Positions 3,791 to 27,100 of a DNA stretch of 64,000 bases are shown here, piece after piece. A program made the position numbers and the translations under genes. This DNA comes from Buxus sempervirens. Taxonomy: Eukaryota; Streptophyta; Magnoliopsida; Buxales; Buxaceae. The notes below the pieces were generated by a model, which was given only the letters and a program-made list of their open reading frames with translations, had not been told where the DNA came from and did not search any database. The stretch spans positions 3,038,001-3,102,000 of the forward strand of contig OX387193.1 in the NCBI GenBank assembly GCA_947561395.2, written 5' to 3'. Positions within the stretch are counted from its first letter, which is position 1. Each line of letters begins with the position of its first letter.

Positions 3791-3851
3791 CGCGGAGAAT
3801 AGTAGAGGCTTTCTGTACTTCGATTTCTGAGAGTAACGGAGCTTTGTAGAT

Positions 3852-3860
3852 CTTATAAAG
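3852..3860 (-). promoter_or_regulatory. TATA-like box of the NudC gene, inside duplicated segment E
   Basis: Read on the minus strand, TTTATAAG lies about 60 nt upstream of the NudC ATG. The third copy (around 37,995) keeps the same bases, but the second copy (around 18,810) reads TTTGTAAG. The core promoter is therefore part of the triplicated block and is damaged in copy 2. Assignment rests on position and motif only. Confidence 0.45.
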
Positions 3861-3952
3861 CGCTTCGGTGCAGAGGAAGTCCGAATCTTCCAGAGACCCC
3901 AACCGAGTTAGGAAGTCGAATAGCAAGAGACTTCCATAGCTTCATAAGGGAC

Positions 3953-5085
3953 GAAACTGGTCGGATCTGTCCGAGTCTAAGACCCGACCCATTAATTAGC
4001 TCTCCTTGTAGATGGCGCGTATCCAAGCGGACTTTTAAAATGCCCTTCCAAACACGGCGCAAACATTATGAAAATCAAATACCTCCACAACACACAAAGA
4101 TATAATAAAATTGCAAAAAGGTATATATTAAGTATTTTAATTATTTTTAAAATATATATTCCAGTCTAAGGATGTATTGCAACTTTTATCTTTAGATTTC
4201 CCAATTTCGACAGAATATTAAGTTTTGAAAATTTGATAAAATTTCCTAATAAAAATGTAAAAAGTGAAAAATTAGGGAATTTTATCCTTGCATAAAGCTA
4301 AAAGTTTTGATTTTAAGTTTTTGAACTATAGATGTCTATGTATCATCAAACTATAGATTTTCATATCAGTATGAACCAATAATCCCTTCAAGTCTGCAAG
4401 TTCTAAAACAAGGCAATTTAGTTCAGATTTTTTAAAAGACCGCCAACAAAAGTAAAGCCAAAAAGATAGAGGGTGTTTGGTAACGTTTTCAAACATAGTT
4501 TTCCTATTATTAAAAACGAACAAACCCAAAATAATGTTTGTTAAACATCATTTTCAAATCGTTTTTGAAAGAAAAAAACGATTGAAAAACAAGCCGTTCT
4601 TTGAAAACAGAAAATTTGAGTTTTTTAAAACGACTAATTTTTTCCGATGGTATTTTTGTAATAAAATCTTTTATCTCTTTGATACACTCTCCTCCTCCTC
4701 GCAAAGATCATTTCTTGATGAAGCAAAAATCCTGGCAGCTCCACTGAATTTGAGCCCCTCTGCTTTTCGTCGGTTTCAATGGGTACATAAATCAAAATCC
4801 ACTGGGCTCCATTTGGGGGTTTTCATAACACCCAATCAGCGTCGAAATCGACGACATGTAGGCATGCCGTTGATTGCACCTACCCCACTATCTCTCTACT
4901 CTCTCTCTGCTCTTGCCCTCTATCGTCTACTCTCTCCTTCCTCTTATCTCTCGCTTGCTCTATTAGTTTTTTCTCCACGCGGGTTCCATTGGGAGCAACT
5001 TGTATCCTCCTCCCCTTTATTTTGAAGGAAGAGTGCAAGTCCTCTTCTCCTCCCTGCACTCTATTTTTCTTCTTCGGTTTCATGG
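3953..5085. other. Start of spacer S: no gene, possible TIR element end
   Basis: No protein-coding gene is recognised. At 4469 begins GAGGGTGTTTGGTAACGTTT, whose imperfect inverted match (GAGGCTGTTCAGTAACGTTT on the minus strand) ends at 8339. The pair may be the ends of an old DNA transposon into which the 5091-7638 LTR inserted, but no target-site duplication is visible. Open frames across 4477-5025 have a composition unlike protein and are also interrupted in copy 2 (19433-19924). Confidence 0.4.
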
Positions 5086-5090
5086 GGAGC

Positions 5091-7638
5091 TGTAACGCCC
5101 CGGATCCGGGTTACGTAACCTATACCGTAACTCGTCACCGAAGGGTTGCTTTTCCACCCAGGAACGATAAATCAGAGTAAGGAAAACATGAATGAACAGT
5201 AAAATAAATAATCAGAGTCAACTAAAACCCAACTCAAACTAAATATCAAATTCTAATCTGAACTCACTTGACCCCAGCTTTTACCCTCCGATATCATCAT
5301 TTCTAAGATCTGAAAACAAAACAAAATAATACGGTATGAGATACAAATATCTTAGTAAATAGCACATGCATGCGCATAAACATTTTTCCCAGTTCTAAAA
5401 CATGATCCAGGTAAAAAATATGCATTAGTGACAAATACACGGATAAACTGAATAATTCCACGATAATACATCAACAAATACAAGATCACTAGAATAATTC
5501 CACATACCGATAAAATCTGAACATCAAATCATAAATAAACAAATCATAGCAGGATTCATGGATTAGCATGTCTGTAAATCGAGATAACCACCCTTGGCCG
5601 GTTTGCCATCTCACTGCTAGAAGGTCGAAGCCGCGCATGGTCATCCCCCGAAGTAGAGCACCTACGCATGGGCTGGCACAAAACAACCCAGTCAACAGTA
5701 ATCATAATACTCACACACACACAAGGAAACCTTGCCGATCCCACATAGCGGAAATGGGTTGCCGCAACCCTCTATCCCACAAGAGAGCCTCACCGATCCC
5801 ACACGGTGCAAATGCGAATGCAGCCCGGGGTGTTAACTCGACAAGCCAACACTAATACACTATCTAGATTGACCATGGATCCATAACAACCTCTATGCCC
5901 ACTAGACTCAATATAAATCAATAAAACAGTTTATATAAAACCAATCTCATAAAGGCACTGCTTGCCTAAAACACACAACCATATCAAGTGAACCTCTTGT
6001 TCACCTTCCTTTAAATCCCAAGGCCTCACTGCCTTTTTGGGTTACCATGGGCTCTCAGCCCCCTTTTGCAAGTCTACAAGAAGCCTCAGCTTCATCATTT
6101 AAATAACAAAAGAGTTCTCAATCCTCGCTTTCATAAATCCGAATCAGTCAAAACGAATGTCATAAAATCTTTAAACATGTTTTGGATGAGTGGGATAGTC
6201 TTAGGATCCCCAATATGGTCATCATACAAAAAATCAATTGATTCCGAAACAAAAAGTTTTGGACCTAAAAAATATTCTAAGTCTGATTAAAAACGTTGAC
6301 TTTTGGGTATATAATTTTTCTAGACAAATCTACGAGGAGTTTCGGGCTCAAATTCTGATTATAGTCTAATGAAGGGAAAACAAATCCTCTGGAATTTTAT
6401 GGGCTTCTGAATCACTCATTTGGGTATCTATCTCAAAAAGTGGCTTTTGATGAAAATCGGGAAAACTGAGAATTTAGGCATGAACTGGAAAGTTGACTTT
6501 TTATTGTTGGGAATTTGGCCTTGGGAGTATTTTTATTGGTTCCAAATAAAGGGTAAAACCTTATTTACATGTAAAGACTTAAGTAAATGGAATAATAAAT
6601 ACACATGACCTTATTTGGGAAAAGATTGGAGAAGAAAAAGATGAAAAAAAACTGTCAAAATGACCTTTTTCTAGGCTGGCACCTACCTCAAGGCACTGAG
6701 CACCCCTAAGCGCCCAGCCAAAAATGAAATAGTGGTTTATGGCAAGGCAAACTTCACCATGTCTGACCCTTCCATTCCACTTCAAACTACTTCTACCCTA
6801 ACTTAATTCCTCTAAAACAACCAATATATACCTAATTGCATTTAATTGGAGACATGAAATCTTCTCTATAGAATTAGACGCCCATTCTCATTTCAAACAG
6901 GATTTTCAGCAAAATTAATCACACATATCAATTTAATCTCTTCCATAGTTTATGCACATTTAAATTTAACTAAAACAACTTTCAACAAACACAAGACCAA
7001 CCGCTGATGTTCATAAGAAAATAGGTGTGATTTACGAAGAACAAGTTTAGATGCTAACGGAGAAACCATATGATAAATCAAACGTCAAAAGGGTGTGGAA
7101 CTTACCTGCAAACGTGCAATCCACCGCTCCAAGCTCTCTCTCCCTCTTCTTCCCTTCTCCCCTTCTTTCTCCCCTTCTCTCCCTGCGCTTGCGCCCCTTT
7201 TCCTCTAACCCCTTGATGAGCGAAAAATGAGAACCCTCGAGTTCTCACTTCAATTTATATAAAATTTTTAAATTAGACCACTTCAACCAGTTTAAATGAA
7301 CCGAACCCCCACTAAACCGAAACCAAGCAAATTAATCAATTAACCCGCTAAACCTCTAGATTAAATCCAACTAAATAAAATAATTCTTTTCCTCAAGTAA
7401 AGTAATTTAATTTAATCTCATTACACCTAAACCAACCAAATCGAATTCTAACACTTAAACCGGTTCAATTGAATGAACCAATCCATCAAAACTTGACCCA
7501 AACAATTTAACCTATTTACTTGAAGCAAACCCACCCAATTAAGCCTTTTCTTTAAAATTGGATTTAAATAACCTCATTAAATCCTTTAATCCCCTATTTA
7601 CCCTTAATTAAAATTTCTTAAAAATTCAGGGTCTTACA
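5091..7638 (-). mobile_element. Solo LTR (2.55 kb) of an LTR retrotransposon, copy in unit 1
   Basis: The element starts TGTAACGCCCCGG and ends CAGGGTCTTACA, so on the minus strand it opens with TGTAAGACCCTG. It is flanked by a perfect 5-bp target-site duplication GGAGC (5086-5090 and 7639-7643). No gag or pol reading frame is present, and a single terminal repeat lies between the duplications. This is the signature of a solo LTR left by LTR-LTR recombination. The length and the TGTAAGACCC start suggest a Ty3/Gypsy-type family, which is inference. The paralogous copy is at 20049-22595. Confidence 0.85.
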
Positions 7639-7643
7639 GGAGC

Positions 7644-8343
7644 AACATATACTCCTCCTTTTACTTTGAAGGAAGAGAGTCCGAGATCCCACACGAGTCC
7701 CTTCTCTCTTCTTTAAAAACAAATTTATTTTTCTTTAATTTCCTTTTATATATTTTTTATTTGATTTGATTTGATATTTTTTCTTTTTCCTTTACATATT
7801 TTAAGTTTTTCTATTATATTTGTCTTGTTTACCTTTTCACTTTTTGTCTTTTATAAATTTTGACGTGGGCAAACTTAACGCATACACAAGTTTGCCACTT
7901 GGCAAATTGAATTACAAAAGTTAAAAAAAACTCTTTTGTTTGTACCTTTTCTATTTGGACACTGATTTATGCATAATCAGTGGCTTTTGGAATTGTGTCG
8001 AAATCCTCTTTCAAAATATATAAAAATTGCTAGTCAACCCAACAGCTGGCAAAACGCTAGTTTTGATTTAGTGGTTTCAACGAATTATTTTAGGGTTCTC
8101 TTACAAATTTGAAGGGTGAAAATTTTGGGTGCTTACACGTCATAGAAAGATGTATGCATCATTTTGTACTCCTCATAGAAGGTTTTATAAATCATACGAT
8201 GTAAAATAATATAGGCAAAATCAAATTTTCAAACACATTATTAAAGATTTTTAAAATTATAATTGAATTTAACTTAAACGTTACCAAGCCGTTTCTCTTA
8301 ACTATTTAAAAAAATACAAAAACGTTACTGAACAGCCTCATAC
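7644..8343. other. AT-rich spacer, no gene seen
   Basis: Non-coding AT-rich DNA continues the sequence that was interrupted by the solo LTR. The right-hand member of the imperfect inverted pair described for 4469 ends at 8339. No open frame, RNA gene or further repeat is recognisable. Confidence 0.5.
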
Positions 8344-9600
8344 TTGAATACGATTAGAGGTGGCAATTGTGACCTGCCAATCCACCCAAACCCGCCCGGT
8401 CTTAGGCGGGTTAGGGTTGACTGTTTCAATAAACGGGTTGGGTTAGGGTCATATATTCTTAACCCGATTATAAACGGGTTGGGTTAGGGTTTGACCCCTC
8501 AACCCGAAATGACCAAATTACAACTAGGGGTGCAACTCGGTCCGGTTAAAACCGAACTCGAACCGACTTCGGTTCGGTTTGGTTCGGTTTTATAGTACTT
8601 CGGTTCGGTTTTCGGTCCAAAAATCCCTAAACCGAACTAGGTCGGTTCGGTTTTTGGTTTCATGTTCGGTTAAACCGAACCCGAACCGAAACCGAACCGA
8701 ATACATTATTTCCCTAAACCGAACCGAAATGAACCGAACCGAATTCATATATATATATATAATATATGTTTTATATATATGTAATATAATATATGATAAA
8801 CTTATAAAGTTTATTTTTAAACTTAGGATATTACAAAAAAACCATTGTTTAAGATAAGAATATTGGTCTAACCCGAACCGAACCGAACCGAACCGAACCG
8901 AACCGAACCGAATAGTTTTCATGTAGTTCAGTTTGGGTTTCGGTTTTTTTTATATATTTTCGGTTCGGTTTTCGGTTTTGTTGGTTCGGTTTTCAATTCG
9001 GTTCGGTTTAACTATGTATATTTTCGGTTTGGTTTTGGGTTGACATCAACCCGGATCGAACCGAACCGAGTTGCACCCCTAATTACAACCCGTTTATTTT
9101 TTTGTGTAACAAAAAGTTTGGAAAATTATAATAACAATACTTGTGGCTATTCAATCTTTCTTCTTTTAATATAAATAATGACAAAAAATAAAGTGAAGAA
9201 AGACTTTTTACGTATAAATATTTCAAATTTCTTAGCCTCTACTAATATAAATTGATGACAAGTAAAGTCTTTTAAAATTTTATTATTATGTTTTAGTTCT
9301 TTTTTCATGTTATTTTAATTCTATCTTAATGATTGTTGTGTTCTTATGCTTGTTAGGTGTCCTTTGATATTAGAATGAATTAAAAAATAGAATTTGTATA
9401 GACTTTGATATTAGAATGAATTAAAATTTTTAATTTTTAGTAGTAATTTAAATTATTTAAACGGGTTGGCGGGTTGAAGCGGGTTGGGATATTCCAACCC
9501 GTTTATTAAATGGGTGGGTTCGGGTTGAGCCTCGGCTTGTTAATCCCATACATCAACCCGACCCGAACCCGCCCGTTTATTCAAGGCATTCTTCAGCTCT
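8344..9600. repeat. GGGTT-rich inverted repeat element (host of the MITE)
   Basis: Runs of GCGGGTTAGGGTTG and AAACGGGTTGGGTTAGGG at 8400-8500 are answered by AACCCGACCCGAACCCGCCC at 9550-9575 and similar tracts from 9460. The whole has the look of a non-autonomous DNA element with subterminal repeats. The middle is AT-rich. A 557-bp MITE is inserted at 8525. The same element in unit 2 (23,310-24,010) is free of the MITE, and a Copia element lies about 100 bp downstream of it. Confidence 0.5.
8525..9081. mobile_element. hAT-type MITE, unique to unit 1
   Basis: The ends are inverted repeats (TAGGGGTGCAACTCGG at the left, CCGAGTTGCACCCCTA at the right). An exact 8-bp target-site duplication, ATTACAAC, flanks it at 8517-8524 and 9082-9089. 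The intact empty site is visible in unit 2 at 23475-23482. The body is packed with AACCG/CGGTT repeats in both orientations and a central AT tract, and carries no transposase. Eight-base duplications and short TIRs fit the hAT superfamily. Open frames across it are products of the repeat. Confidence 0.93.
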
Positions 9601-9958
9601 TCAACCCATTCTATTCCTCAATGGTCGACTATTGTTGGATTTGCAATGATTTCAGCATTTTATTAAATACATCACTCACGGCAATAGAAACCTAGCTCTG
9701 AATACCTCAATACTAATTTTTTTTTCCGTTAAATTGAAAGAACTAATACCCATCACTTGATTTCTTGGACCGATATACGACATGGTGAAGCATGCACGCA
9801 ATTGAAATCTCATCTTCACCTTATATCGTAGCAAGACAAAAAGATAGCTAATACTCTTATCATAAAAGCTGTACACTGAAAGCTTGTTATCAAACTAAAT
9901 TAGCAGTAACATCACAACAGGGAATTGCCGGAATCACAGAACATGATGCAATTACCAA

Positions 9959-10200
9959 TCAAAAAGCCAGCATAGAGATAGAGAGAGAGAGAGAGAGAAA
10001 GCTAGACCGCTCATCCTGCAAAACTGTGGAAACCGAGTGGTGTGAAGGAGAAGCATGGGGTGTGAGAGTAGTTTTGAGGTGTAAGGAGGAGGAGAAAAGG
10101 CGGGAAATTTGAGGAGAGAAGGGGAAGAGGAGGAGACGATGCATAGTGATGGTCCAATTGGAGGGGAATTGAGCGTCAGAAGATGATGTAGGCACCCCAT
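9959..10200 (-). pseudogene. First-exon-like fragment with transit-peptide-like N-terminus, unit 1
   Basis: On the minus strand an ATG at 10200 opens a Ser/Pro/Leu-rich, acid-poor frame (MGCLHHLLTLNSPPIGPSL then SSSSPSLLKFPAFSPPPY) resembling a plastid or mitochondrial transit peptide. It ends near QFCRMSG. An alternative ATG at 10195 gives another frame. In unit 2 the corresponding exon ends at a consensus donor CCAG|GTAGCT; here that donor has become TCTAGCTT and the (GA)n tract beside it is longer. No downstream exon is recognised, so this is probably a captured or left-over gene start. Its parent gene is unknown. Confidence 0.4.
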
Positions 10201-11172
10201 CTCGCTTCTACGCTGAGTCGCCGGTGAAGGAGACGGGGAAGTCGAGAGAAATAAATCAAACCGATTATATGTTTCGACGGGGATTTCATGGTTATGGGTC
10301 CCACCGGAAGTCCCACTTATTTAACTTATTTTGTTCTCTTTGTTTTGGTTTTGAGTTTTACATATATATTCATACAACATTGTTGTTTTGGACATTTTAC
10401 AAGAAATCCAGAATTGTACATGTAGACGCATGAAGATATTTTTAAATAGGTATAATTATAGTTTATAGATTTCACAATCCAACTTCTCCTTTTGAGATTT
10501 TTAAAATATCAGCTTAAAATCTCAAAAAATCAGTTTACCTCCTTAAGGTTTGGTGTGAATAATAATTTTTCATTTTGATTTTTAAAATATTAATTTATCA
10601 CCTTAAGATTTGGTACCACAGAGGTTTGGTGTGAATAATAAGTAATAACTTTTCATTTACAGAGGTGATTGTGAGGTGTTAAAAGAAAAAAACATATATT
10701 AACAACTTTATCCTTTTTATTCTAACCCACTAAAAAATAGTCTTAAATTTAAAGGGTGCAAAGTTCAAGGTCATAAAACACAACCACCCTTAAGGCAATA
10801 AACCATATTGCCAAAAGGAACTGCTTTATCAAAGCCAAATGGTCTTAACAAATTTTTCTTTAGACCGCAAGTAGGATTATTGACTCCTTCTATTTGAAGC
10901 ATATCATAATAAGTGAACACGAAATTACATGCGTGATTCCCTTTGCCTGTTATAGCTGGAATTTTTATACCTTAAATTCTCAAAATATTATTTGTCGAAG
11001 TGATGCATTAAGCCGTTGTTTACTAACATTTTTGAAAATAGTTTCTGTTTTTAAGAATATTAGTCTAGAAATTTACATTTGATAAACACAGTTTTAAAAT
11101 TGCTTTTAAAATTAACATTCCGAAATAGCTCTGTTTTTAGATTGCTAGAAACAGCAAATCGTTTTTAAAATT
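10201..11172. other. AT-rich spacer with short local repeats, no gene seen
   Basis: The motif GGTTTGGTGTGAATAATAA is repeated at about 10547 and 10624. From about 11020 the sequence has the GTTTACTAACATTTTTGAAAA style of the MITE-like ends noted at 4469. No open frame resembles protein. The second solo LTR is inserted at 11173. Confidence 0.5.
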
Positions 11173-12269
11173 TGTTTACACCCTATATGACTAACGAATA
11201 AGAAAAGGGCACGTGATGCCTATGTGGCTTATTTAGGCCACGGTATCAAAGCACGTAGGCCTTGCACAGTTGGTTAGGCCACGTCAGCATGAACACAGAA
11301 CCAAGAATACAGTTCGAGTCACGCCAATACGACAAAACCACGAATATCAGAAGATTGTGTCATCGGTCGTTCAAGAATAAACTAGTTTAAGATTGTGGCC
11401 GAGCGGTTATCATTCTGGAACGGAAGACTGAAGACGACCAACCGCCATGAAGATCGTGCAAGAGTAGGACGCTGAGCAAACCGTCAAAGATCGGCTATAA
11501 AAGGCACCAATTCGAAGAGCTCGAGGACACAATCCACCCAACCGCAACCGGTTATTATATTATTTTGATCATCCGTGATCTTTTATCCCCTCTACTACAG
11601 AGGATAAACTAGGACCTCTCTCACTGCTTCCAGTCGCAGTGACATCTTCGACCCCTCTTTACTCCGATTAACACCGGAATCCTGCCACCGGAGAGTAAGT
11701 TGAGGCCGCCCCTGACTCGCAGTTCTGTGTTTACAGAATCCCGAGCAGCCGGTCCCGAGACTTGCTCTGATCACGCCAGGTGACTTGTGTATTTTCGGGT
11801 AAGCAGCAATCCAAGGTGAATCCCCCGAATTGACTTTGCTAGTAGCCGCCCCCTTCCTCCTGCGCTTATACCCGATTATGGCTATAAGACCAGGACAGGC
11901 CGGTCCTGCAAGCCCTGTCGGTTTTCTTTTGTACTTTTGTTTCCCTTTTGAGGATTATCTGTTGTCGCTTTTGGCTCGTCGGCCGATTTTATAATAAAAG
12001 GATTTGTGTGCCATTAGTTGCTTTCGCTTTCAAATACTTACAAGAACTCAAACGAAGATCGGACCCCTAGTCTTCATATCATCGCCTGACCCGTTTTATT
12101 ACAGGTGACTTGCAGTACGACTGGACCGATCCCGGTTCAGATTCGGAACAGGTGCCTGGGGTCAGGGTTCGACCCGAAATCATTTGTATCAAACGATACT
12201 GGCACGCCCTCATAGAGACACATCATCACCTTCGACACGTGTCCACACCGGCCCAATTTCGGAGCAACA
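11173..12269 (+). mobile_element. Solo LTR (1,097 bp), unit 1
   Basis: The element begins TGTTTACACCC and ends CGGAGCAACA (TG...CA), between perfect 5-bp duplications AAATT at 11168-11172 and 12270-12274. A TATA box (GGCTATAAAAGG, about 11490) followed by a GC-rich transcribed-looking segment fits an LTR promoter reading on the plus strand. No internal retrotransposon sequence remains. The identical-length copy in unit 2 is 30197-31293. The GGGTTCGACCC stretch near 12170 resembles a pol III B box but lies in the LTR with no tRNA fold around it. Confidence 0.85.
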
Positions 12270-12274
12270 AAATT

Positions 12275-12534
12275 ATTAATTTAATTTCTGCGATTCCTTG
12301 TTTTGAATTATAATCATTAAATTTAAATTAACAAACACAATTTTTACTGATTATAACTAAATATTACCATTCTTCACTTGTTTCCAAAATCATAAAAACT
12401 ATCAAAGTTTTTTTTTTTGCCCAATAAATTTCTTTCTTCTATGTTTTCTTCTATCTTAAGATGCCAAGGGGTTATTAAAAAAAAAAGATGTCAATGATTT
12501 TAATTGATTGAGCCCAATTTCCCTTTCCTCAACT
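12275..12534. other. AT-rich DNA between the solo LTR and the LINE
   Basis: Non-coding AT-rich sequence with T and A homopolymer runs, including a poly-A of about nine near 12478. The LINE target-site duplication follows at 12535. Confidence 0.5.
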
Positions 12535-13439
12535 AAATCAAAACCCTAAATGGGACAAATTTTTTATGTCGTGTTTTTTGCTCCCTAAGTCTATTTTATG
12601 CAGATTGGACCAGCTGGCTAGACAATTTTTTTTGGAGAAGAGGAAGGGATACTCAAGCTATTCCCCTAGTCTGTTGGAACCGAATTACTTTACCTTGGCG
12701 AAATGGCGGATTAAATATCAAGCGCCCGGAACTAATGAATAAAGCTTTGCTGCTCAAAGCAGCATGGCAACTTCAAACTCAGAAGAAAGGAGTCAAAGGA
12801 CTATGGGTGCAGCAGATGAATAAACTATATTTTCCAAATTCTACGTTTCTGGAGGCTACTTTCAAACTTGGTCAGTCTTGTATATGGCGACAACTCCAAG
12901 CTTTGAAGAATTATCTACGTCAAGGATTAACTTGGATCGTGGCCAATGGATCAAAAATCCATATTTACCGTGATCAGTGGATCCAAAATCAAGAGTTTAC
13001 AGATCTTCCACCAGCAGCTACACAGGAAATCCAACTCCACTGGGTAAGCCAATTAATATATTCAGACACTAAAACATGGAATTTTCCTCTTATTTCCTGA
13101 TTATGGCCATCGTCCATTGCATCTTCTATTCTTGCTATCCCTTTATTTCCTTTACTCCAAGAAGATAAGCAGGTGTGGAAATTCTCGACACATGGCAATT
13201 TTACTGTGGCATCGGCTTACCACTCCTACCGGAAACATGGTAGAATCTACAGACAAATTATGGCTCAGAATTTGGCATTTAGTAGTTCCAGCCCACTGTC
13301 GACTATTTCTTTGGAAGTCCATCCATAATGGAATAGCATTTGCAGATATGATTTGCCGGTGTACTCAAAGAACGGATCTGTACTGTATTTTCTGTAAGAC
13401 TCAGAGAGAAACTGTAGAATACTTATGGCTTCAATGCCC

Positions 13440-14798
13440 CTTCTACGCACATCTTTACTACACACTTTACTACGCTCGCCTAGATTCGACAAGTGACAGG
13501 TCAGGTCTGTTTCAAACCCTACAATATTTTTACCTATTTCCCTACTAACCATGGTTTCCTACCCGCCAATTCATCTTACTGGCAAAACAATTAACTTTTC
13601 CGACAGTCTCACCCCAATTGAAACATTTCGCCTTTCCCGCCACTTCCAACTCTTGTTATTCCAAACCCATCCAAATCTGAAAATCTTCTATTATTATTAT
13701 TTTTTTTTGAAAATCTTCTATCGAACCTTGCTTTGAAATGCACATTGCAGAGGAACCTTGCATTTTGTTCCTTGTTATCTCCCAAACCCAAAAACTTCTT
13801 CAGATTTTCTATACCTGAAAAGTTTCAGCTGAACCTTGCTTTGGAATGTATCTTGCAGAGGCATTTTGTTCCTTGTTACCTCCCAAACCCAGAAGCTTGT
13901 TCAGATTTTCAATACCGGAAAAGTTTCAGTCAAACCTTGCTTTGGAATGCACTTTGCAGAGGAACCTTGCATTTTGTTCCATGTTATCTCCTAAATCCAA
14001 AAGCTTCTCTAGATTTACGATACCTGAAAGTATCCATGCTTTGACTTGCTGGGATTGAGACTCTCGCAAGTACAGATTCCGGAACTTAGGGGAATCGAAA
14101 AACATTAGATCTAAACTCCCACCACTTAAGGTTTTGTATCTCTCAGGCCCTACCTCTCTCATTCTTTCTCTTGGAAGAAGACAAATAGAAAAGGCCTCCA
14201 AAATTTTGTTTTTTCTTGGAGAGAGAAGAACAAAAACATAAGAATGATTAAAAAAGAAAAAGAAAAAAAAACAAAATAAGCTCCGATCGAATAGTCACTT
14301 AGTTATTGCTGTTAAAAAGATCAGGTACCGTTGATCTATGCCAAGGTGTTTGGGAAATGAAGAAAAAAAAAAGAGCGATGTTCTACCTTCCTCTCTACTT
14401 CTGCAAAGGAGTGCCGGCTTGCTTCTACTCCAAGAGATAAATAGAGAAAAGCAATGCCGGCTTGCTTCTGCTAATTCTCGTTAGAAAAGATGCAAAAAAA
14501 TAAAAGATGAGGATAAAAAAGTACACGAATCTGCACATACAAGTGTTTTTCAAAATTCAAAATTCAGCATCTATTCCTATGAGTTTCCCTGCAAGTCTGG
14601 ACGTTTATTCCGACGAGTCTCGGCTCCGTTCTGATGATTATCAATAACAATAGCCTTCGGTTCCGACAGGCAAAAGATGGGTCACATAACTCAGGTAATT
14701 ATGGTTTACTAAAGTCCGCCAAGCGTTGAATTGAGAATGGTGTAGTAAAGCTCATCGTACAGAGCTGCGTCGTAGAGGATTTGCTTTCTTTAATGCCC
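13440..14798. mobile_element. 1.36-kb insertion inside the LINE, unclassified
   Basis: The LINE zinc-finger codons stop at TCAATGCCCC (13440) and resume after TTAATGCCC (14798). AATGCCC (13433-13439 and 14792-14798) is thus a direct repeat at the insertion, extendable to about 12 bp with one mismatch. Near the ends CTTTACTACAC occurs in inverted orientation (13450s and 14740s), suggesting an imperfect-TIR DNA element. Inside are three tandem copies of a ~105-bp unit (13729-14040) starting CCTTGCTTTGGAATG. No transposase is recognised. The same insertion is present in unit 2. Confidence 0.6.
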
Positions 14799-15520
14799 TT
14801 TCTCGCGCATGATATGGATTCAGTGTTTGGGTGGGTCTACCCAATCTTATGGTCCACAGAATTCACTCCGGCAGTCGTTCCAAGCACTTTTTCGGTTTAA
14901 ATCAGATTTGCCTCTTTTGAATTTCAATGATATATTGGCTGATATTTCTTTTTTCGGGTGGATAATTTGGAATCATCGTAATAAAGTTATCTTTGATCAT
15001 TGTCATCCTAATGTATTTCAAGTGATCAAGCAATTCGAAGGGCTACATCAGGAATTGGAGATGTCAAAGAATGAGTCCTATTCACTTCCAAAATACAGTG
15101 AGATTATTCAAGTAAGTTGATCTCAAGTAAGTTGATCTCCTCCAGATGAATCACACATCAAACTAAATTTTGATGGAACACTGCATCAATCTAATGGAAG
15201 AGCAGGAATAGGGGTCATCGCTAGAGACCACACTGGGAAATTTTTAGCCTCAGTTGCAGCTACATGTGATGTCCAACATGCTTCAAGTAGAGGCCAATGC
15301 TGCACTTGAAGCGTTAAAATTGGCTCAAGCTAACAATTATCAGAACATTTTTCTAGAAGGGGATTCTCTGGTTATAGTCAAATTCCTTCAACAAATGCCC
15401 AACACCTCTCCTTGGTGATTGACTACTACATTGGATCATATCAACTCCTTGGCGATTGATTGTTACATTGGATCGTATCAAATCTATCTAGTCTGCATTT
15501 CAACACAATCAGGTGAGACA

Positions 15521-16946
15521 TATTTACCGAGAAGGCAACCGAGCAACAAACATCTTGTATGTGGGTCCAAAAACACCCCTCTTGTGTATTTACCGAGAAG
15601 GCAACCGAGCAGCAGACATCTTGTTTACCGAGAAGGCAACCGAGTAGAAGACATATTTACCGAGAAGGCAACCGAGCAGTACACGTATTTACCGAGAAGG
15701 CAATCCAAGCCAACCGAGAAGGCAATTGAGCAGCACACGTATTTACCAAGAAGGCAATCCAAGCCAACCGAAAAAGCAACCGAATAGCACATGTATTTAC
15801 CGAGAAGGCAACCGAGCAGCACACGTATTTACCGAAAAGGCAACCGAGAAGGCAACCGAACAGCACACGTATTTACCGAAAAGGCAACCGAGAAGCCAAC
15901 CGAGCAACACACGTATTTACCGAGAAGGCAATCCAAACCAACCGAGAAGGCAACCAAGCAGCACACGTATAGGCAATCCAAACCAACCGAGCAGCACACG
16001 TATTTACCGAGAAGGCAACCGAGAAAGCAATCCAAACCAACCGAAAAGGCAACCGAGAAGCCAACCGAGAAGGCAACCGAGCAGCACACGTATTTACCGA
16101 GAAAGCAATCCAAACCAACTGAGAATGCAACCGAGCAGCACACGTATAGGCAATCCAAACCAACCGAGAAGGCAACCGAGCAGCACACGTATTTACAGAG
16201 AAGGCAACCGAGAAGGCAATCAAACCAACCGAGAAGGCAACCGAGCAGCACACGTATTTACCGAGAAGGCAATCCAAGCCAACCGAGAAGGCAATCAAGA
16301 AAGCAATCCAAACCAACCGAGCAGCACACGTATAGGCAATCCAAACCAACCGAGCAGCACACGTATTTACCGAGAAGGCAACCAAGAAGGCAATCAAACC
16401 AACCGAGAAGGCAACCGAGCAGCACACGTATTTACCGAGAAGGCAACCGAGTAGCAGACATTTACCGAGAAGGCAACTGAAAAGGCAATCCAAGCCAACC
16501 GAGAAGGCAACCGAGCAGCACACATATTTACCAAGAAGGCAACCGAGTAGCAGACATTTACCGAGAAAGCAACCGAAAAGGCAATCCAAGCCAACCGAGA
16601 AGGCAACCGAACAGCACACATATTTACCAAGAAGGCAACCGAGTAGCAGACATTTACCGAGAAGGCAATCGAAAAGGCAATCCAAGGCAACCGAACAGCA
16701 CACATATTTACCGAGAAGGCAACCGAGCAGCAGACATTTACCGAGAAGGCAATTCAAGAAAACCGAGAAGGCAATCCAAGCAAACCAAACATCAAACATA
16801 TTTACCGAGAAGGCAACCGAGAAGGCAATCCAAGCAAACCGAGCAGCAGACATCGAGCAGCAGACATATTTACCGAGAAGGCAATCCAAGCCAACCGAGA
16901 AGGCAACCGAGCAGCAGACATCTTGTTTATTTACCGAGAAGGCAAA
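15521..16946. repeat. Minisatellite derived from LINE RNase H codons, unit 1
   Basis: The array is about 1.43 kb of variants of a 32-bp unit (TATTTACCGAGAAGGCAACC followed by GAGCAGCACACG), mixed with shorter AGGCAATCCAAGCCAACCG modules. The first unit is still in frame with the RNase H domain and encodes HIYREGNRA, the hallmark C-terminal motif of plant LINE RNase H (consensus YREGNRAAD). Because 32 is not a multiple of 3, the array is open in several frames and on both strands for hundreds of codons; those open frames are artefacts of the repeat. The unit-2 array is longer (1.60 kb) with a different unit order. Confidence 0.92.
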
Positions 16947-16977
16947 ATTCGATGGCGAGCGAATTTTGCCATCGAAT
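16941..16977. other. Two mutually exclusive hairpins at the end of the minisatellite
   Basis: GGCAAAATTCG (16941-16951) pairs perfectly with CGAATTTTGCC (16960-16970). Overlapping it, ATTCGATGGC (16947-16956) pairs perfectly with GCCATCGAAT (16968-16977). Only one of the two stems can form at a time. The same sequence occurs after the unit-2 array (about 36121-36157). Confidence 0.7.
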
Positions 16978-17114
16978 ACTTCTCCTGTATGTGGGTCCAA
17001 AAACCCCCCTCTTTTTTTACTTCTTGTATTGTCGATGATTCAAGACATGTAATATACTTTCGTAATACATAATAAATATGTTTTCTCCACCAAAAAAAAA
17101 TCAAAACCCTAAAT

Positions 17115-17717
17115 CAATGTGGCCAAAAACAAGGAAAATTAAATCAAATTTTGAAAAAAAAATAAAAGCATACAGAGAATAGAGTAGAGAGCCGTCAGAT
17201 AGGAGCGAAAGACGTGAAACGTAATCACGGAGATTATCATCTGAACTATGCATTTAGCTGTTCATCACTCGACTCTCAATCACAGATCCATAAAAAATAA
17301 ACAAAAAAAAATAGCCCTAAAGAGAAAAACTCAACAATAGCTTAATCCATCAAAAGGAAACAAAAATTAGAAAATAAAAACAAAAATAAAAGTAAAAAGC
17401 CTCAGAAGGAAGGCAGTAGTGGTATGAATGTAATCATCCATTATTCATTCTATGTTAAAAATACCATCCTTTCATCATCGACTACTTTCACGATCTAAGC
17501 AAGCCCCAAGACCCTAAACAATCAATCAAGAACAAAAATAAAAAACATAAAAACAGAAATCGATATAAGATATTGACAAAAGAAGATGGCCTCATAGAGA
17601 AGATTAGTTCGTCAACACAGATTGTTTCAGACATATGCTTGTCTTAATTTAATTGTTTAATCATCGGCCATCTTTGAATCCAAGCTAACGAGAAACATGT
17701 TTAATCATCGGCCATCT
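17115..17717. other. End of spacer S, no gene; direct repeat at the duplication junction
   Basis: AT-rich non-coding DNA. Just before the next E copy, the 21-base stretch beginning TTTAATCATCGGCC and ending ATCTTTGA is present twice (about 17660 and 17699), separated by AATCCAAGCTAACGAGAAACATG. The second copy runs directly into E (TTTGA|TGCCC). Confidence 0.7.
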
Positions 17718-18329
17718 TTGATGCCCTCTGGGTCTGAGAGTATATGGTGCCCCAAAAAAACAAGAGTTTTTGTTCCTATCACTCGCTCTACTAACCGTGA
17801 AAATCTTGGCGACCAACAAAATGCTGATTCCGTTTACAAAAAAGTGGCAGCAAATCGAATTGTGGGAATAAAGAGTGTGTGTGTGTGTTTATGGGTGTCT
17901 CTCTGTGTGAGTGTGATGCCCTTTGAATCTGAGTTTGTGCCCAATTACTCAGTTAACTAACCACTAAAACCCTGCAACCAATACAATGCTGATTCTGTTT
18001 ACAATGCGAGCGAGCGTCTCTGCGTGAGTGTGATGCCCACCACCGGCGGAATTTCCAAAAGCTACAACAAGAAACTTTACAGTTTACCCTAGGGTTTTAT
18101 CTGTCGACAATTTACAAAGCGAGAAAAACAGATCTTTACATTGAAATTTCACCCCCTCTACAAAACTCCCCTCAATGCATATTAGATCAGAAAAAATTAC
18201 GATTGACAATACTCCATGCAATGTAGGTTTTAACTGTATTGCAAGTACGGAAAATTGAACATATACGCATAACAAGCAACGAGAAACAGAGAGATATAAT
18301 CACAGACCTAGAGAAATTCGAGAACAAAC

Positions 18330-18747
18330 CTCGCAAGTTCTCCTTTCCGTCGGCCTTTGACTCCACTGCTGAATCTTCTTTATCTTTCTCTGGCTTGCCT
18401 TCCTTCGACGAAGACGCCACAGTTTTCTTCGGCACTTCCTCCTTTTTCACTTCTTTCGCCGTATCAGAAGCCCGGGTCTCCGCCTCCTTCAGACGCTTTT
18501 TCTTTCTCTCCTCTTCGTCTCTGTCCCTTATCTCCTGAACCCTGGCCAGGATCTCCTTCTTGGCAGCCGCCTCGTCCTTGAAGAAATCGGATTCACGGTG
18601 AATAAATTCAAACACGGCCTTCAGAAACGCTCCTGGGTTTTGAGGATCAAAGGCGGCTGTGAAGTTTTTTGAAGGGGAAGAAGATGAAGGAGCGTTTTTC
18701 TGCTGATGCTGGTGCTCTTCATCTTGTATGTCTGAGATAATTGCCAT
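18330..18747 (-). pseudogene. Orphan exon 1 of the NudC gene, copy 2
   Basis: The 418-bp exon is complete, from ATG at 18747 to the donor AG|GTTTGT at 18330, and remains open. It differs from copy 1 by a few substitutions, for example Pro to Leu and Ala to Thr changes in the charged linker (KKRLKEAETRAS against [12 protein letters not shown]). No NudC exons 2-5 lie downstream within reach, only the LINE and spacer of unit 1 and then the real gene 15 kb away. Translation would run through the donor into intron sequence. The TATA-like box is mutated. It could only be used as a distant alternative first exon, which seems unlikely. Confidence 0.85.
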
Positions 18748-20048
18748 CGCGGAGAATAGTAAAGCCTTTCTGTACTTCGATTTCTGAGAGTTACAGGGCT
18801 TTGTAGATCTTACAAAGCGCTTCGGTGCAGAGGAAGTCCGAATCTTCCAGAGACCCCAACCGAGTTAGGAAGTCGAATAGCAAGAGACTTCCATAGCTTC
18901 ATAAGGGACGAAACTGGTCGGATCTGTCCGAGTCTAAGACCCGACCCATTAATTAGCTCTCCTTGTAAATGGCGCGTATCCAAGCGAACTTCTAAAATGC
19001 TCTTCCAAACACGGCGCAAACATTATGAAAATCAAATACCTCCACAACACACAAAGATATAATAAAATTGCAAAAAGGTATATATTAAGTATTTTAATTA
19101 TTTTTAAAATATATATTCCAGTCTAAGGATGTATTGCAACTTTTATCTTTAGATTTCACAATTCGACAGAATATTAAGTTTTGAAATTTTGATAAAATTT
19201 CCTAATAAAAATGTAAAAAGTGAAAAATTAGGGAATTTTATCCTTGCATAAAGCTAAAAGTTTTGATTTTAAGTTTTTGAACTATAGATGTCTATGTATC
19301 ATCAAACTATAGATTTTCATATCAGAATGAACCAATAATCCCTTCAAGTCTACAAGTTCTAAAACAAGGCAATTTAGTTCAGATTTTTTAAAAGACCACC
19401 AACAAAAGTAAAGCCAAGAAGATAGAGGGTGTTTGGTAACGTTTTCAAACATAGTTTTCCTATTATTAAAAACGAACAAACCCAAAATAATGTTTGTTAA
19501 ACATCATTTTCAAATCGTTTTTGAAAGAAAAAAACGATTGAAAAACAAGCCGTTCTTTGAAAACAGAAAATTTGAGTTTTTTAAAACGACAAATCTTTTT
19601 CGATGGTATTTTTGTAATAAAATCTTTTATCTCTTTGATACACTCTCCTCCTCCTCGCAAAGATCGTTTCTTGATGAAGCAAAAATCCTGGCAGCTCCAC
19701 TGAATTTGAGCCCCTCTGCTTTTCATCGGTTTCAATGGGTACATAAATCAAAATCCACTGGGCTCCATTTGGGGGTTTTCATAACACCCAATCAGCGTCG
19801 AAATCGACGACATGGAGGCATGCCGTTGATTGCACCTACCCCACTATCTCTCTACTCTCTCTCTCTGCTCTTGCCCTCTATCGTCTACTCTCTCCTTCCT
19901 CTTATCTCTCGCTTGCTCTATTAGTTTTTTCTCCACGCGGGTTCCATTGGGAGCAACTTGTATCCTCCTCCCCTTTATTTTGAAGGAAGAGTGCAAGTCC
20001 TCTTCTCCTCCCTGCACTCTATTTTTCTTCTTCGGTTTCATGGGGAGC

Positions 20049-22595
20049 TGTAACGCCCCGGATCCGGGTTACGTAACCTATACCGTAACTCGTCACCGAA
20101 GGGTTGCTTTTCCACCCAGGAACGATAAATCAGAGTAAGGAAAACATGAATGAACAGTAAAATAAATAATCAGAGTCAACTAAAACCCAACTCAAACTAA
20201 ATATCAAATTCTAATCTGAACTCACTTGACCCCAACTTTTACCCTCCGATATCGTCATTTCTAAGATCTGAAAACAAAACAAAACAACACAATATAAGAT
20301 ACAAATATCTTAGTAAGTAGCACATGCATGCGCATAAACATTTTTCCCAGTTCTAAAACATGATCCAGGTAAAAAATATGCATTAGTGACAAATACATGG
20401 ATAAACTGAATAATTCCATGATAATACATCAACAAATACAAGATCACTAGAATAATTCTACATACCGATCAAATTTGAACATTAAATCATAAATCAACAA
20501 ATCATAACAGGACTCATGGATTAGCGTGTCTGTAAATCAAGATAACCACCCTTGGCCGGTTTGCCATCTCACTGCTAGAAGGTCGAAGCCGCGCATGGTC
20601 ATCGCCCGGAGTAGAGCACCTACGCATGGGCTGGCACAAAACAACCCAGTCAACAGTAATCATAATACTCACGCACACACAAGGAAACCTCGCTAATCCC
20701 ACATAGCGGAAATGGGTTACCCCAACCCTCTATCCCACAAGAGAGCCTCATCGATCCCACACGGTAGAAATGCGAATGCGGCCTGGGGTGTTAACTCGAC
20801 AAACCAACACTAATACACTATTTAGATTGACCATGGATCCATAACCACCTCTATGCCCACTAGACTCAATATAAATCAATAAAACAGTTTATATAAAACC
20901 AATCTCATGAAGGCACTGCTTGCCTAAAACACACAACCATATCAAGTGAACCTCTTGTTCACCTTCCTTTAAATCCCTAGGCCTCACTGCCTTTTTGGGT
21001 TACCATGGGCTCTCAGCCCCCTTTTGCAAGTCCACAAGAAGCCTCAGCTTCATCATTCAAATAACAAAAGAGTTCTCAATCCTCGCTTTCATAAATCCGA
21101 ATCAGTCAAAACGAATGTCATAAAATCTTTAAACATGTTTTGGATGAGTGGGATAGTCTTAGGATCCCCAATATGGTCATCATACCAAAAATCAATTGAT
21201 TCCGAGACAAAAAGTTTTGAACCTCAAAAATATTCTAAGTTTGATTAAAAACGTTGACATTTGAGTATATAATTTTTCTAGACAAATCTACGAGGAATTT
21301 CGGGCTCAAATTCTGATTATAGTCTAATGAAGGGAAAACAAATCCTCTGGAATTTTATGGGCTTCTGAATCACTCATTTGGGTATCTATCTCAAAAAGTG
21401 GCTTTTGATGAAAATCGGGAAAACTAAGAATTTAGGCATGAACTGGAAAGTTGACTTTTTATTGTTGGGAATTTGGCCTTGGGAGTATTTTTATTGGTTC
21501 CAAATAAGGGTAAAACCTTATTTACATGTAAAGACTTAAGTAAATGGAGCAATAAATACACATGACCTTATTTGGGAAAAGATTGGAGAAGAAAAAGATG
21601 AAAAAAAACTGTCAAAATGACCTTTTTCTGGGCTGGCACCTACCTCAAGGCACTGAGCACCCCTAAGCGCCCAGCCAAAAATGAAATAGTGGTTTATGGC
21701 AAGGTAAACTTCACCATGTCTGACCCTTCCATTCCACTTCAAACTACTTCTACCCTAACTTAATTCCTCTAAAACAACCAATATATACCTAATTGCATTT
21801 AATTGGAGACATGAAATCTTCTCTATAGAATTAGACGCCCATTCTCATTTCAAACAGGATTTTCAGCAAAATTAATCACATGTATCAATTTAATCTCTTC
21901 CATAGTTTATGCACATTTAAATTTAACTAAAACAACTTTCAACAAACACAAGACCAACCGCTGATGTTCATAAGAAAATAGGTGTGATTTACGAAGAACA
22001 AGTTTAGATGCTAAAGGAGAAACCATATGATAAATCAAACGTCAAAAGGGTGTGGAACTTACCTGCAGACGTGCAATCCACAGCTCCAAGCTCTCTCTCC
22101 CTCTTCTTCCCTTCTCCCCTTCTTGCTCCCTTTCTCTCCCTGCGCTTGCGCCCCTTTTCCTCTAACCCCTTGATGAGCGAAAAATGAGAACCCTCGAGTT
22201 CTCACTTCAATTTATATAAAAATTTTAAATTAAACCACTTCAACCAGTTTAAATGAACCGAACCCCCACTAAACCGAAACCAAGCAAATTAATCAATTAA
22301 CCCGCTAAACCTCTAGATTAAATCCAACTAAATAAAATAATTCTTTTCCTCAACTAAAGTAATTTAATTTAAACTCATTACACCTAAACCAACCAAATCG
22401 AATTCTAACACTTAAACCGGTTCAATTGAATGAACCAATCCATCAAAACCTGATCCAAACAATTTAACCTATTTACTTGAAGCAAACCCACCCAATTAAG
22501 CCTTTTCTTTAAAATTGGATTTAAATAATCTCATTAAATCCTTTAATCCCCTATTTACCCTTAATTAAAATTTCTTAAAAATTCAGGGTCTTACA
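20049..22595 (-). mobile_element. Solo LTR (2.55 kb), unit 2 copy
   Basis: Paralogue of 5091-7638 with the same TGTAACGCCCC...GGTCTTACA ends. The target-site duplication is GGAGC at 20044-20048 and a mutated AGAGC at 22596-22600. It is one base shorter than the unit-1 copy and differs by scattered substitutions. Confidence 0.85.
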
Positions 22596-24105
22596 AGAGC
22601 AACGTGTACTCCTCCTTTTACTTTGAAGGAAGAGAGTCAGAGATCCCACACGAGTCCCTTCTCTCTTCTTTAAAAACAAATTTATTTTTCTTTAATTTCC
22701 TTTTATATATTTTTTATTTGATTTGATTTGATATTTTTTCTTTTTCCTTTACATATTTTAAGTTTTTCTATTATATTTGTCTTGTTTACCTTTTCACTTT
22801 TTGTCTTTTATAAATTTTGACGTGGGCAAACTTAACGCATACACAAGTTTGCCACTTGGCAAATTGAATTACAAAAGTTAAAAAAAACTCTTTTGTTTGT
22901 ACCTTTTCTATTTGGACACTGATTTATGCATAATCAGTGGCTTTTGGAATTGTGTCAAAATCCTCTTTCAAAATATATAAAAATTGCTAGTCAACCCAAC
23001 AGCTGGCAAAACGCTAGTTTTGATTTAGTGGTTTCAACGAATTATTTTAGGGTTCTCTTACAAATTTGAAGGGTGAAAAAATTGGGTGCTTACACGTCAT
23101 AGAAAGATGTATGCATCATTTTGTACTCCTCATAGAAGGTTTTATAAATCATACAATGTAAAATAATATAGGCAAAATCAAATTTTCAAACACATTATTA
23201 AAGATTTTTAAAATTATAATTGAATTTAACTTAAACGTTACCAAGCCGTTTCTCTTAACTATTTAAAAAAATACAAAAACGTTACTGAACAGCCTCATAC
23301 TTGAATACGATTAGAGGTGGCAATTGTGACCTGCCAATCCGCCCAAACTCGCCCGGTCTTAGGCGGGTTAGGGTTGACTGTTTCAATAAACGGGTTGGGT
23401 TAGTGTCATGAATTCTTAACCCGATTATAAACGGGTTAGGTTAGGGTTTGACCCCCTCAACCCGAAATGACCCAATTACAACCCGTTTATTTTTTTTGTG
23501 TAACAAAAAGTTTGGAAAATTATAATAACAATACTTGTGGCTATTCAATCTTTCTTCTTTTAATATAAATAATGACAAAAAATAAAGTAAAGAAAGACTT
23601 TTTACGTATAAATATTTCAAATTTCTTAGCCTCTACTAATATAAATTGATTCATTGATGACAAGTAAAGTCTTTTAAAATTTTATTATTATGTTTTAGTT
23701 CTTTTTTCATGTTATTTTAGTTCTATCTTAATGATTGTTGTATTATTATGCTTGTTAGGTGTCCTTTGATATTAGAATGAATTAAAAAATAGAATTTGTA
23801 TAGACTTTGATATTAGAATGAATTAAAATTTTTAATTTTTAGTAGTAATTTAAATTATTTAAATGGGTTGGCAGGTTGAAGCGGGTTAGAGCGGGTTGGG
23901 TTAGGGTTGGGATATTCCAACCCGTTTATTAAACAGGCGGGTTCGGGTTGAGCCTTGGCTTGTTAACCCGATACATCAACCCGACCCGAACCCACCCGTT
24001 TATTCAAGGCATTCTTCAGCTCTTCAACCCATTCTATTCCTCAATGGTCGACTATTGTTGGATTTGCAATGATTTCAGCATTTTATTAAATACATCACTC
24101 ACGGC

Positions 24106-27100
24106 TAACAATGTCTGTAAAACCACACTAAGTATGGGTTGAGTTTTCCATTTATATAGAAGTATACAAAACAGAGCATCGTTTGAATACAAAGATAAAA
24201 TAAGAAAGGTTTTACAAATGGAAACCGTATTTCCTAAACTACATCTCCTGTAATCAAGGAGGATTCAATCAAGGAGGAATCCGTAAATCAATAACTGATT
24301 TACTGGAATCCTCTACAGCCCCCCGCAAGCTAAGAGTGGGATTAACACAAACTCGTAGCTTGGATCGAAAAAAAACATAGAGATCCCGTGAGACACTCTT
24401 GGTGAAAACGTCAGCCAGTTGTAAGTGAGATGGAATATGCTGAAGACGAAGAGTGCCAGCAACAACGAGTTCTCGGAGAAAATGGTAATCAAGTTCGATG
24501 TGCTTGGCGCGCTTGTGGGACACGGGATTGGAGCTCAGAAAAATCGCACTCTTGTTGTCACAAAGAAGAAGAGGTCGGTGAGTTAAAGTAACCCGAAGAT
24601 CTTGTAAGAGATGAGTGAGCCATAAAACTTCAGCAGCTGTAAGGGCGAGAGCACGGTACTCGGATTCGCAGCTTGAACGAGAAACCGTCGGCTGTTTCTT
24701 GGCACTCCAAGAGACAAGATTGTTGCCAAGAAAAATTGAGTAGCCAGAGGTGGAGCGTCTAGTGTCCGGGCAGCCAGCCCAATCGGCATCCGAGTATGCA
24801 ACTAAGCCCATTGAAGAGGATGAAGTAAACTTGAGACCAAAATGTATTGTGCCTTTAACATAGCGAAGAATTCGCTTGACTGCCTGAAAGTGAACATCAG
24901 TAGGAGCATGAAGAAATTGACTTACAGAGTTGACTGAATGGGCAAGATCAGGACGGGTGATCGTTAAATATTGCAAGGCACCCACTAAGGAGCGATAGAG
25001 AGTTGGATCTGCAAATGGAGCACCTTCAGAGGAGAGGCGTTGAGAGACAATCATGGGAGTAGGAACTGGTTTACTGTCCAACAGTTGAGCACGGGCCAAC
25101 ACATCAGTAGCATATTTAACTTGGCTGAGGAAAAGACCATCTGAGATGTAAGATGCCTCGAGTCCAAGAAAATAATTCAGTGGGCCTAAGTCCTTGACAG
25201 CGAACTCAGAGTGCAACTGGGAGATAAATCGGCTGATGAGAGCAGGATTATTCCCGGTGAGTATGATGTCATCAACGTAAAGGAGGAGATAAATGAGATC
25301 ATCCTGCCTATGAAAGACAAATAAAGAAGTATCCGCGCGGCTGCAAGAGAAACCAAGTCTGACAAGAAATGAACTAAAACGTTGAAACCAAGCACGGGGT
25401 GCTTGTTTCAAGCCGTAGAGAGCCTTCTTTAATTTGCAAACATGAAGAGGATGGCGAGGATCAACATAGCCCGGGGGCTGCTCCATATAGACAGTTTCAT
25501 GAAGAATGCCATTGAGAAAGGCATTTTTTACGTCAAGTTGACGTAGGGGCCACTTGTGAGACACGGCAAGAGAGAGAACAACACGAACTGTGGAGGCTTT
25601 GACCACAGGGCTGAAGGTGTCCGTGTAATCAAGACCTGGAAGTTGAGTGTAGCCCTTTGCAACGAGGCGTGCTTTTAAGCGCTCAATGGATCCATCGGAA
25701 AGAAATTTTGTCCGAAAAACCCATTTAGAACCGACAATATTGGTATTGGAGGGCCGAGCAACAAGATCCCAAGTATGATTTGTTTGAAGTGCCTTCATCT
25801 CGTCATCCATGGCAGCAACCCAAGCTGGGTTTTTGGCAGCTGATTTAAAACCCTTAGGCTCGGAAATGGCAAGCAGTGCATAGATCAAGGGAGAAGACTG
25901 CACTAAGCTGAGAAGAGCTGGATATCTTGTCTTGAAAATTCCTGATTTTGCACGAGTAATCATGGGATGAGAGACAGCAGGAGCTGATGAAGTAAGGGCA
26001 TGAATCAGGTCCATGGGAGCTACAGAAGGAACCAAGTCCGTAGTAGATGCAGGTGTGAGCGAGGCTTCAGCTGATGGAGACGTTGATTCCGTAGAGGAAG
26101 AAACCTGCAAGGGCTCAACAGCAGAGTCATCTACACAAAAATGACAAGGAGGAGTAGTAGGGACCTGCGTAGTAGTAGAAGATGTGCTAGGAGATGGTTC
26201 AAGGGAGCAAGGTTCAAAAAATTTTGAAAAACCAATGTCAGCAATAGAAGCGGCACTGGAAGTATTTGAAAATGGGAAAAAATTCTCATCAAATCGAGCA
26301 TGCCGTGTAATATATGTTCGAGAGGTTATAGTATCAAAACAACGGAAGCCTTTATGTGAGGAACTATAACCAAGGAAAATACACGGTAAGCTACGGGGAG
26401 AAAATTTGTGAGGGGCATAATCACGTAAGCATGGATAAACACGACAGCCAAAAGGGTGGAAATTCTCATAATTAGGAGACTTACCAAATAAAATTTCAAA
26501 AGGTGAAAGACCACCAAGAACAGGCATAGGCAGCCGGTTGATAATGTAGGCCGCTGTGCCGAAAGCATCAACCCAATGACGAGGAGGAATGTGGGAGTGA
26601 AAGAGAAGAGCAAGGCCCGTTTCTGTGACATGACGATGTTTGCGCTCAGCTCTACCATTCTGGGAAGGAGTGTACGGGCAAGACATTTGATGGTGGATGC
26701 CAAAGTGTCGAAGATGAGATTGAAACCGATTGCTTGTAAATTCTGCGCCACCATCACTTTGAAAAATCTTGATTTTGGTGGAGTGTTGATTTTCAACCAA
26801 TTTTTGAAATTGGAGGAAAATATCAAAAAAATCGGATTTTAATTTCATGGGATAAAGCCAAGTAAATCGAGAGTAATCATCGATAAATAAGACATAATAG
26901 GTAAACCCCAAATTAGATTTGATAGGAGCAGGACCCCAAATATCACAATGGATGAGACCTAACACAACATTAGATCGAGTAGTATTCGGAGAAAAAGGCA
27001 AGCGATGACTCTTAGCAAGTTGACAAGTAGAGCAAAGAGATGGATTAGGCAACAAAGAAGTAAGAAATAATTGTCCTTTTTTATTCAAAAGAGATAAAAT

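Follow-up and report, generated by a model that had tools for sequence, protein, structure and literature searches.

A minisatellite array probably seeded by RNase H codons of a single LINE insertion in Buxus

Results

Structure of the array and its host LINE

The window, i.e., the whole 64-kb stretch of Buxus sempervirens DNA that was analyzed (C19 where it is compared with other genomic places), contains a minisatellite array enclosed in a truncated LINE insertion, with the following features:

12535..12551 (+), 5' target-site duplication AAATCAAAACCCTAAAT, an exact 17-bp match to 17098-17114
12552..17097 (+), 5'-truncated LINE insertion enclosing the array (17-bp direct repeat at its bounds, zf-RVT and RVT_3, poly(A) end)
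13249..13452 (+), zf-RVT domain remnant (PF13966, E 9.2e-9, residues 65-132 of ORF 13057-13548)
13722..14029 (+), 101-bp tandem repeat, 2.9 copies, between the zf-RVT and RNase H parts (Tandem Repeats Finder, TRF)
15521..16946 (+), minisatellite array, 1426 bp (TRF, block split, unit match count)
16960..17097 (+), LINE 3' end, made up of the codons that follow the founder motif, the untranslated tail, and poly(A) (alignment with array-less relatives)
17098..17114 (+), 3' target-site duplication, a 17-bp direct repeat directly after the poly(A)

The original prediction described a tandem array of a 32-bp piece and shorter derivatives over 1.4 kb, and this array is real (1.43 kb by TRF and block split). 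TRF was run on both window arrays, as had been proposed, and reported tandem repeats for each: overlapping arrays over 15587-16945 (e.g., period 32 with 3.6 copies and 87% matches, and period 96 with a score of 605) and a second set at 34598-36105. Splitting 15521-16946 into blocks yielded the 12-mer ACCGAGAAGGCA, 20-mers such as ACCGAGCAGCACACGTATTT and 22-mers such as ACCGAGAAGGCAATCCAAGCCA as the bulk of the array, the main composite unit of 32 bp being a 12 + 20 block. In a unit scan, the 32-bp unit from 15587 was found with at least 26/32 matches at 17 array sites, and its best match on the + strand of the remaining window (56 kb) was 18/32. Head-to-tail units of 12, 20, 22, and 32 bp, within the roughly 10-100 bp of minisatellites, and length variation between copies (1426 vs 1598 bp in the window, about 0.2-3.2 kb over six arrays) make it a minisatellite; it is also a LINE-derived tandem repeat, the unit matching, by homology and in collinear position, a LINE segment of which relatives without the array have one copy. 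It is not satellite DNA, which is long, abundant, or dispersed independently of its source element, because unit-word matches were found at three related places only (see below) and the longest array is about 3.2 kb. Elsewhere in the window, TRF reported a perfect 5-bp repeat, CCGAA x 8, at 8873-8912.

We read the 17-bp repeat as the target-site duplication of a single 5'-truncated LINE insertion, 12552-17097, that contains the array. With at most two mismatches, AAATCAAAACCCTAAAT has four matches in the 64-kb window, two per duplicated unit, vs a mean of 0.08 in shuffled sequence, where none of 100 shuffles reached four. The zf-RVT and RVT_3 domains, the poly(A), the target-site duplication, and the 5' truncation all agree with a LINE, putatively of a plant L1-like class with RNase H; plant L1 elements carry archaea-like RNase H. 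The reverse transcriptase core is absent from this truncated copy, with no Pfam match for 12537-13100. The 101-bp repeat at 13722..14029, which is also found in a copy at C21, probably sits in a nested insertion. About 140 bp of LINE tail lie downstream of the array, followed by poly(A), and this LINE 3' end has six close genome copies plus more distant ones.

RNase H codons in the first array unit

The RNase H region upstream of the array and the first unit itself are composed as follows:

15130..15306 (+), RNase H (RVT_3) N-terminal piece, first frame (PF13456, E 1.6e-5, above the Pfam cut-off)
15290..15418 (+), RNase H (RVT_3) middle piece, second frame (PF13456, E 2.9e-5, above the Pfam cut-off)
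15408..15481 (+), 37-bp tandem duplication (TRF period 37, 2.0 copies), of a length that displaces the reading frame ahead of the founder motif
15519..15557 (+), first unit of the array, with codons HIYREGNRATNIL, running on from the LINE sequence upstream (translation; alignment with array-less relatives)
15558..15584 (+), LINE tail stretch of TATGTGGGTCCAAAAACACCCCTCTTG type within the first unit (15553-15583 vs 16983-17013, 93.5% match)

The first unit translates into RHIYREGNRATNIL, an RNase H coding stretch of the LINE. The motif piece is below the Pfam cut-off for RVT_3 (14.5 vs 21.6 bits, E 0.035) and aligns to profile positions 89-117 of 123, the place expected for it in this domain. 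That the first unit encodes the RNase H motif HIYREGNRA, as the original prediction had it, was borne out; the in-frame relation to the domain before it does not hold literally, the RNase H pieces and the motif of the window copy lying in three different frames, because of which this LINE copy must be dead. The last frame shift before the motif equals that of the 37-bp duplication (37 = 12x3+1). Two C21 copies are free of this duplication; one has a shared frame from the middle piece to HIYREGN, with two stops, and the other only from PWRLTATLDHI to HIYREGN. Sequence from the 3' LINE tail is also part of the first unit, and the initial duplication must therefore have exceeded 32 bp. We also considered slippage seeded by the 12-bp similarity of the REGN and RAAD codons and rejected it for want of contrast: the founder matches at 8/12 and 12 relatives at 4-8/12, three closely alike relatives also reaching 8/12 and one C21 unit 9/12.

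Hairpin at the 3' edge

The array ends in a predicted hairpin:

16941..16970 (+), hairpin with 11-bp arms GGCAAAATTCG / CGAATTTTGCC (DNA fold -12.9 kcal/mol, z -4.39, 0/200 shuffles as stable)

The hairpin of a C21 copy is comparable (z -4.55, 0/200 shuffles as stable), and the same place in two array-less relatives folds weakly (z -1.55, 17/200 shuffles; z 0.48, 125/200). It is intact in five of the six arrays and is split by inserted sequence in C8. A palindrome beside the plant minisatellite BvMSat05 is proposed, in the part of that report dealing with it, to promote slippage (PMC2820488). As the fold is strong at the array edge and weak in the two relatives folded, we retain the hairpin only as a possible cause. 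A more speculative idea, to which we give little credence, is that minisatellites are born in the RNase H tail of this LINE family, i.e., that a near-palindrome (GGCAAAYTTTGCC type) at the post-motif codons LANFAI stalls copying, and that template switching there made the 3'-edge hairpin and launched the duplication of the upstream codons.

LINE relatives without the array

A search of the 676.5 Mb assembly with the RNase H region gave 37 matches, genome search counts being lower bounds, and 22 LINE places outside the array loci were checked by translated search (three of them, L024, L026, and L027, holding more than one LINE copy each). At 20 of the 22, the motif runs gapless into LANF-type codons; the remaining two are cut before the motif (L022) or interrupted (L042). 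The tail search returned 11 matches, six of them the array loci, one (C14) a LINE already counted, and four at other places; in three of these four the motif is directly followed by LANF-type codons, and the fourth, on C3, is 72 bp long. Pooled, 23 of 26 other LINE places are without array and have the normal next codons after the motif, and three are uninformative (cut, interrupted, or too short). Please note that the array-less status of the relatives rests on gapless translated matches. At the DNA level, when 12 relatives were aligned with the left and right array flanks of the window, the flanks met at the motif point. The motif followed directly by LANF-type codons is the state that preceded the array.

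Among relatives without the array whose sequence covers the motif, the closest are about 70-79% identical; a closer relative on C3, with 94% over 72 bp, is too short to span it. The latter (L062, C3:11717963-11718034) consists of a 72-bp LINE 3' end, 94% identical to the host LINE tail, and then a long poly(A), and is a very short sibling insertion. Among the loci listed, TRF found unrelated tandem repeats in several array-less relatives, e.g., L024, L025, L027, and L033. Another LINE family (ending ..LLANYCIDKFSCFWIKHPP..) carries a roughly 48-bp minisatellite beginning GAATCTGAGA directly after its poly(A) in three of three copies examined (L033, C14:2315851; L034, C3:59369771; L044, C22:29718799), explained either by targeting of the insertion or by LINE and repeat having spread together.

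Genome distribution and one insertion event

A search of the same genome with the whole array recovered the two window arrays, C21, and C8. A 21-bp unit word, with at most one mismatch, had 59 matches in the whole genome (37 forward, 22 reverse), all of them at three places: 37 at C19 (the window), 13 at C8, and nine at C21. The reversed control pattern gave 0 matches in the same search. At this stringency, no other LINE copy and no unrelated place carries the unit, the question for which the original prediction had proposed a genome-wide unit search, and an array elsewhere without LINE context, named there as the contrary result, was not found, C8 being linked by the LINE tail alone.

The three places have in common the LINE tail and the 3' genomic flank. 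At C21 the LINE 3' end has been duplicated locally, giving three arrays; against the window, its LINE body is 90.7%, its 3' genomic flank 96.2%, and part of its 5' flank 90.7% identical, and a further ~4.8-kb stretch ending in another poly(A) separates the LINE from the 5' flank. C8 matches the window at 88.4% in the tail and 95.2% in the 3' flank, and the 15 kb examined there show no LINE sequence left of the C8 array. Six genome matches exist for the 3' genomic flank, each abutting a LINE tail match; together with the shared LINE and flank sequence, they indicate one insertion event that was duplicated. An empty site preceding the LINE insertion was not found among these six flank matches. 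Likewise, the genome yielded no copy of this particular insertion lacking the array, and the expansion may therefore have occurred before insertion, in the source RNA.

Segmental duplication and turnover of the array

The second array of the window belongs to a large duplication:

2761..38092 (+), tandem segmental duplication (self-comparison of the window)
34532..36129 (+), second array, 1598 bp, copied with its LINE by tandem segmental duplication (TRF, self-comparison, block split)

The duplicated segments are 2761-8524 ~ 17718-23482 (97.7%), 9678-16911 ~ 28702-35896, 15691-18909 ~ 34942-38092, and 2761-3952 ~ 36901-38092 (97.4%). An independent origin of the second window array was rejected; it lies in the tandem segmental duplication, its LINE and flank are 99.3-99.7% identical to those of the first, and it is a recent copy of the first array. 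The duplication units are about 15 and 19 kb, and a 1.2-kb segment, repeated at 2761, 17718, and 36901, could have served as recombination substrate. All three copies of this segment contain an open frame (window 18187-18864, - strand) whose match to the NudC N-terminal domain stays below threshold (E 0.023, 15.1 vs 31 bits), possibly a NudC-like first exon. The right part of the window has further repeats: a direct duplication, 53019-55060 / 58733-60750 (92%), an inverted pair, 55222-56394 / 57816-56647 (89%), and a self-inverted repeat, 45043-45396 (81%).

Between the two window copies, 943/949 bases agree in the LINE body, 599/603 in RNase H, 144/145 in the tail, and 584/586 in the flank, with 0-1 gap events each; the two arrays agree at 1328/1365 (97.3%) with 27 gap events and a length difference of 172 bp. 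Exact recurrence of block words in another locus (C19a, C19b, C21_1, C21_2, C8) is 10-46%, vs 83-86% within C19; for C19a, 34% of the block words also occur in C8, 46% in the long C21 array, and 86% in C19b. Unit make-up is different too, the 3.2-kb C21 array being dominated by 22-mers and C8 by 20-mers ending GATATATTT plus 32- and 25-bp words that, among the top words, are unique to C8. The edges are conserved: both arrays of C19, the C8 array, and the first of the C21 arrays have the joint between first unit and LINE tail stretch, and all six arrays close on the right with a unit ending ACATCTTGTTTATTT. Plant substitution rates are about 7e-9 per site per year, at which the C19 copies would roughly be 0.3-0.5 million years apart and C19 some 3 million years from C21 or C8.

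Discussion

We consider it highly probable that RNase H codons of one LINE insertion seeded the tandem array, that segmental duplications copied the locus, and that the copies re-expanded differently. The central claim of the original prediction, an RNase H motif of a LINE as the seed of a tandem repeat, is supported by the LINE sequence at both array edges (on the left the RNase H pieces and the first unit, on the right the LINE tail followed by poly(A) and the target-site duplication), by the array-less relatives, and by the three linked places. The events would have been as follows. A plant-type LINE, demonstrably 5'-truncated and with a 17-bp target-site duplication, inserted once. At or after insertion, a stretch from the RNase H codons HIYREGNRAADIL into the LINE tail was duplicated in tandem, to which the tail fragment in the first unit testifies; the tail part would then have been mostly lost, and the 32-bp motif piece, together with the 12-bp blocks inside it and the 22-bp blocks derived from it, would have multiplied. 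Slippage during replication and unequal exchange may account for later growth among 12- to 34-bp blocks, with possible help from the hairpin at the 3' edge. Segmental duplications, evident from the shared flanks, then carried the locus to C21, C8, and the second place on C19, each copy demonstrably keeping its edge units and re-expanding different inner units. The array itself is presumably neutral, unstable DNA for which no function is needed.

Other origins have to be weighed against this one. The array might have been born with the insertion, through template jumping or stuttering close to the 3' end of the LINE while it was being reverse transcribed or inserted by target priming. It lies about 150 bp or less from the poly(A) end, which is consistent with this; the LINE 3' end near the poly(A) is the part copied early in target-primed reverse transcription. 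Motif and tail sequence joined in the first unit, and the hairpin marking the 3' edge, point the same way, but the arrays were still changing after each segmental duplication, so that later DNA-level processes must supply most of the growth, and we regard such a birth as unlikely. Much less probable still is an array already present in the source LINE and brought in by retrotransposition, in the manner of tandem repeats in some LTR elements: retrotransposon-borne repeats that later expanded are documented, in the portion of the work on Ogre elements bearing on them (PMC7004042), but here all three places with an array have the same genomic 3' flank, the 59 unit-word matches include none in a LINE at another site, and none of the 23 informative LINE relatives has an array. 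Within this assembly and at the search sensitivity applied, carriage by the source LINE is refuted for other full insertions.

It would take an extraordinary coincidence for a pre-existing minisatellite to have come to lie beside the RNase H domain with an accidental coding match. We found no point in favor of this, beyond the fact that LINE-satellite neighbors occur in this genome (the 48-bp case, 3/3 copies), and against it the motif occupies the collinear place in the RNase H domain, the relatives carry the same sequence once at that place, and both array edges are LINE. The alignment with array-less relatives already contradicts such a chance origin.

Similar origins are on record. A review, in its section on such repeats, lists satellites or minisatellites from LINE coding sequence, i.e., PROsat, Pvc20 (LINE-1 ORF2), and HinfI (CR1 ORF2 plus 3' end) (PMC9659126), and like these the Buxus array is part of a LINE coding region turned into a tandem repeat. 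As far as that section describes them, the Buxus case is different in its 32-bp unit from the RNase H motif, in its small array, restricted to a single insertion plus the segmental copies of it, and in the founder and both LINE flanks still being in place. The Ogre LTR retrotransposon, whose 3' tandem repeats give satellites in Lathyrus, resembles our case in a source near the retrotransposon 3' end and in expansion to different degrees; according to the relevant part of that work, however, Ogre repeats reside in the untranslated region of many element copies (PMC7004042), whereas the Buxus array stems from coding sequence and belongs to one LINE insertion, with no carriage by retrotransposition seen for it. 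BvMSat05 of sugar beet is likewise a plant minisatellite with palindromic sequence at its edge, but its arrays are head-to-head, an arrangement not seen in the Buxus array, and the passages of the report on it state no retrotransposon origin (PMC2820488). The original prediction had called this a path seldom seen with the founder in place: the founder is indeed in place, but the path is less rare than this, LINE-derived satellites already being covered in the review (PMC9659126). Our literature searches found no paper describing this array.

The array is a well-documented example of a known process with unusually complete evidence, and the general picture, i.e., that retrotransposons seed tandem repeats, is unchanged. 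The founder of a tandem repeat has usually disappeared by the time its origin is inferred. In this genome the founder codons still stand in their LINE, relatives have kept the single-copy state, and six related arrays can be ordered in time by their shared flanks, so that the gain and loss of units can be counted against a substitution clock.
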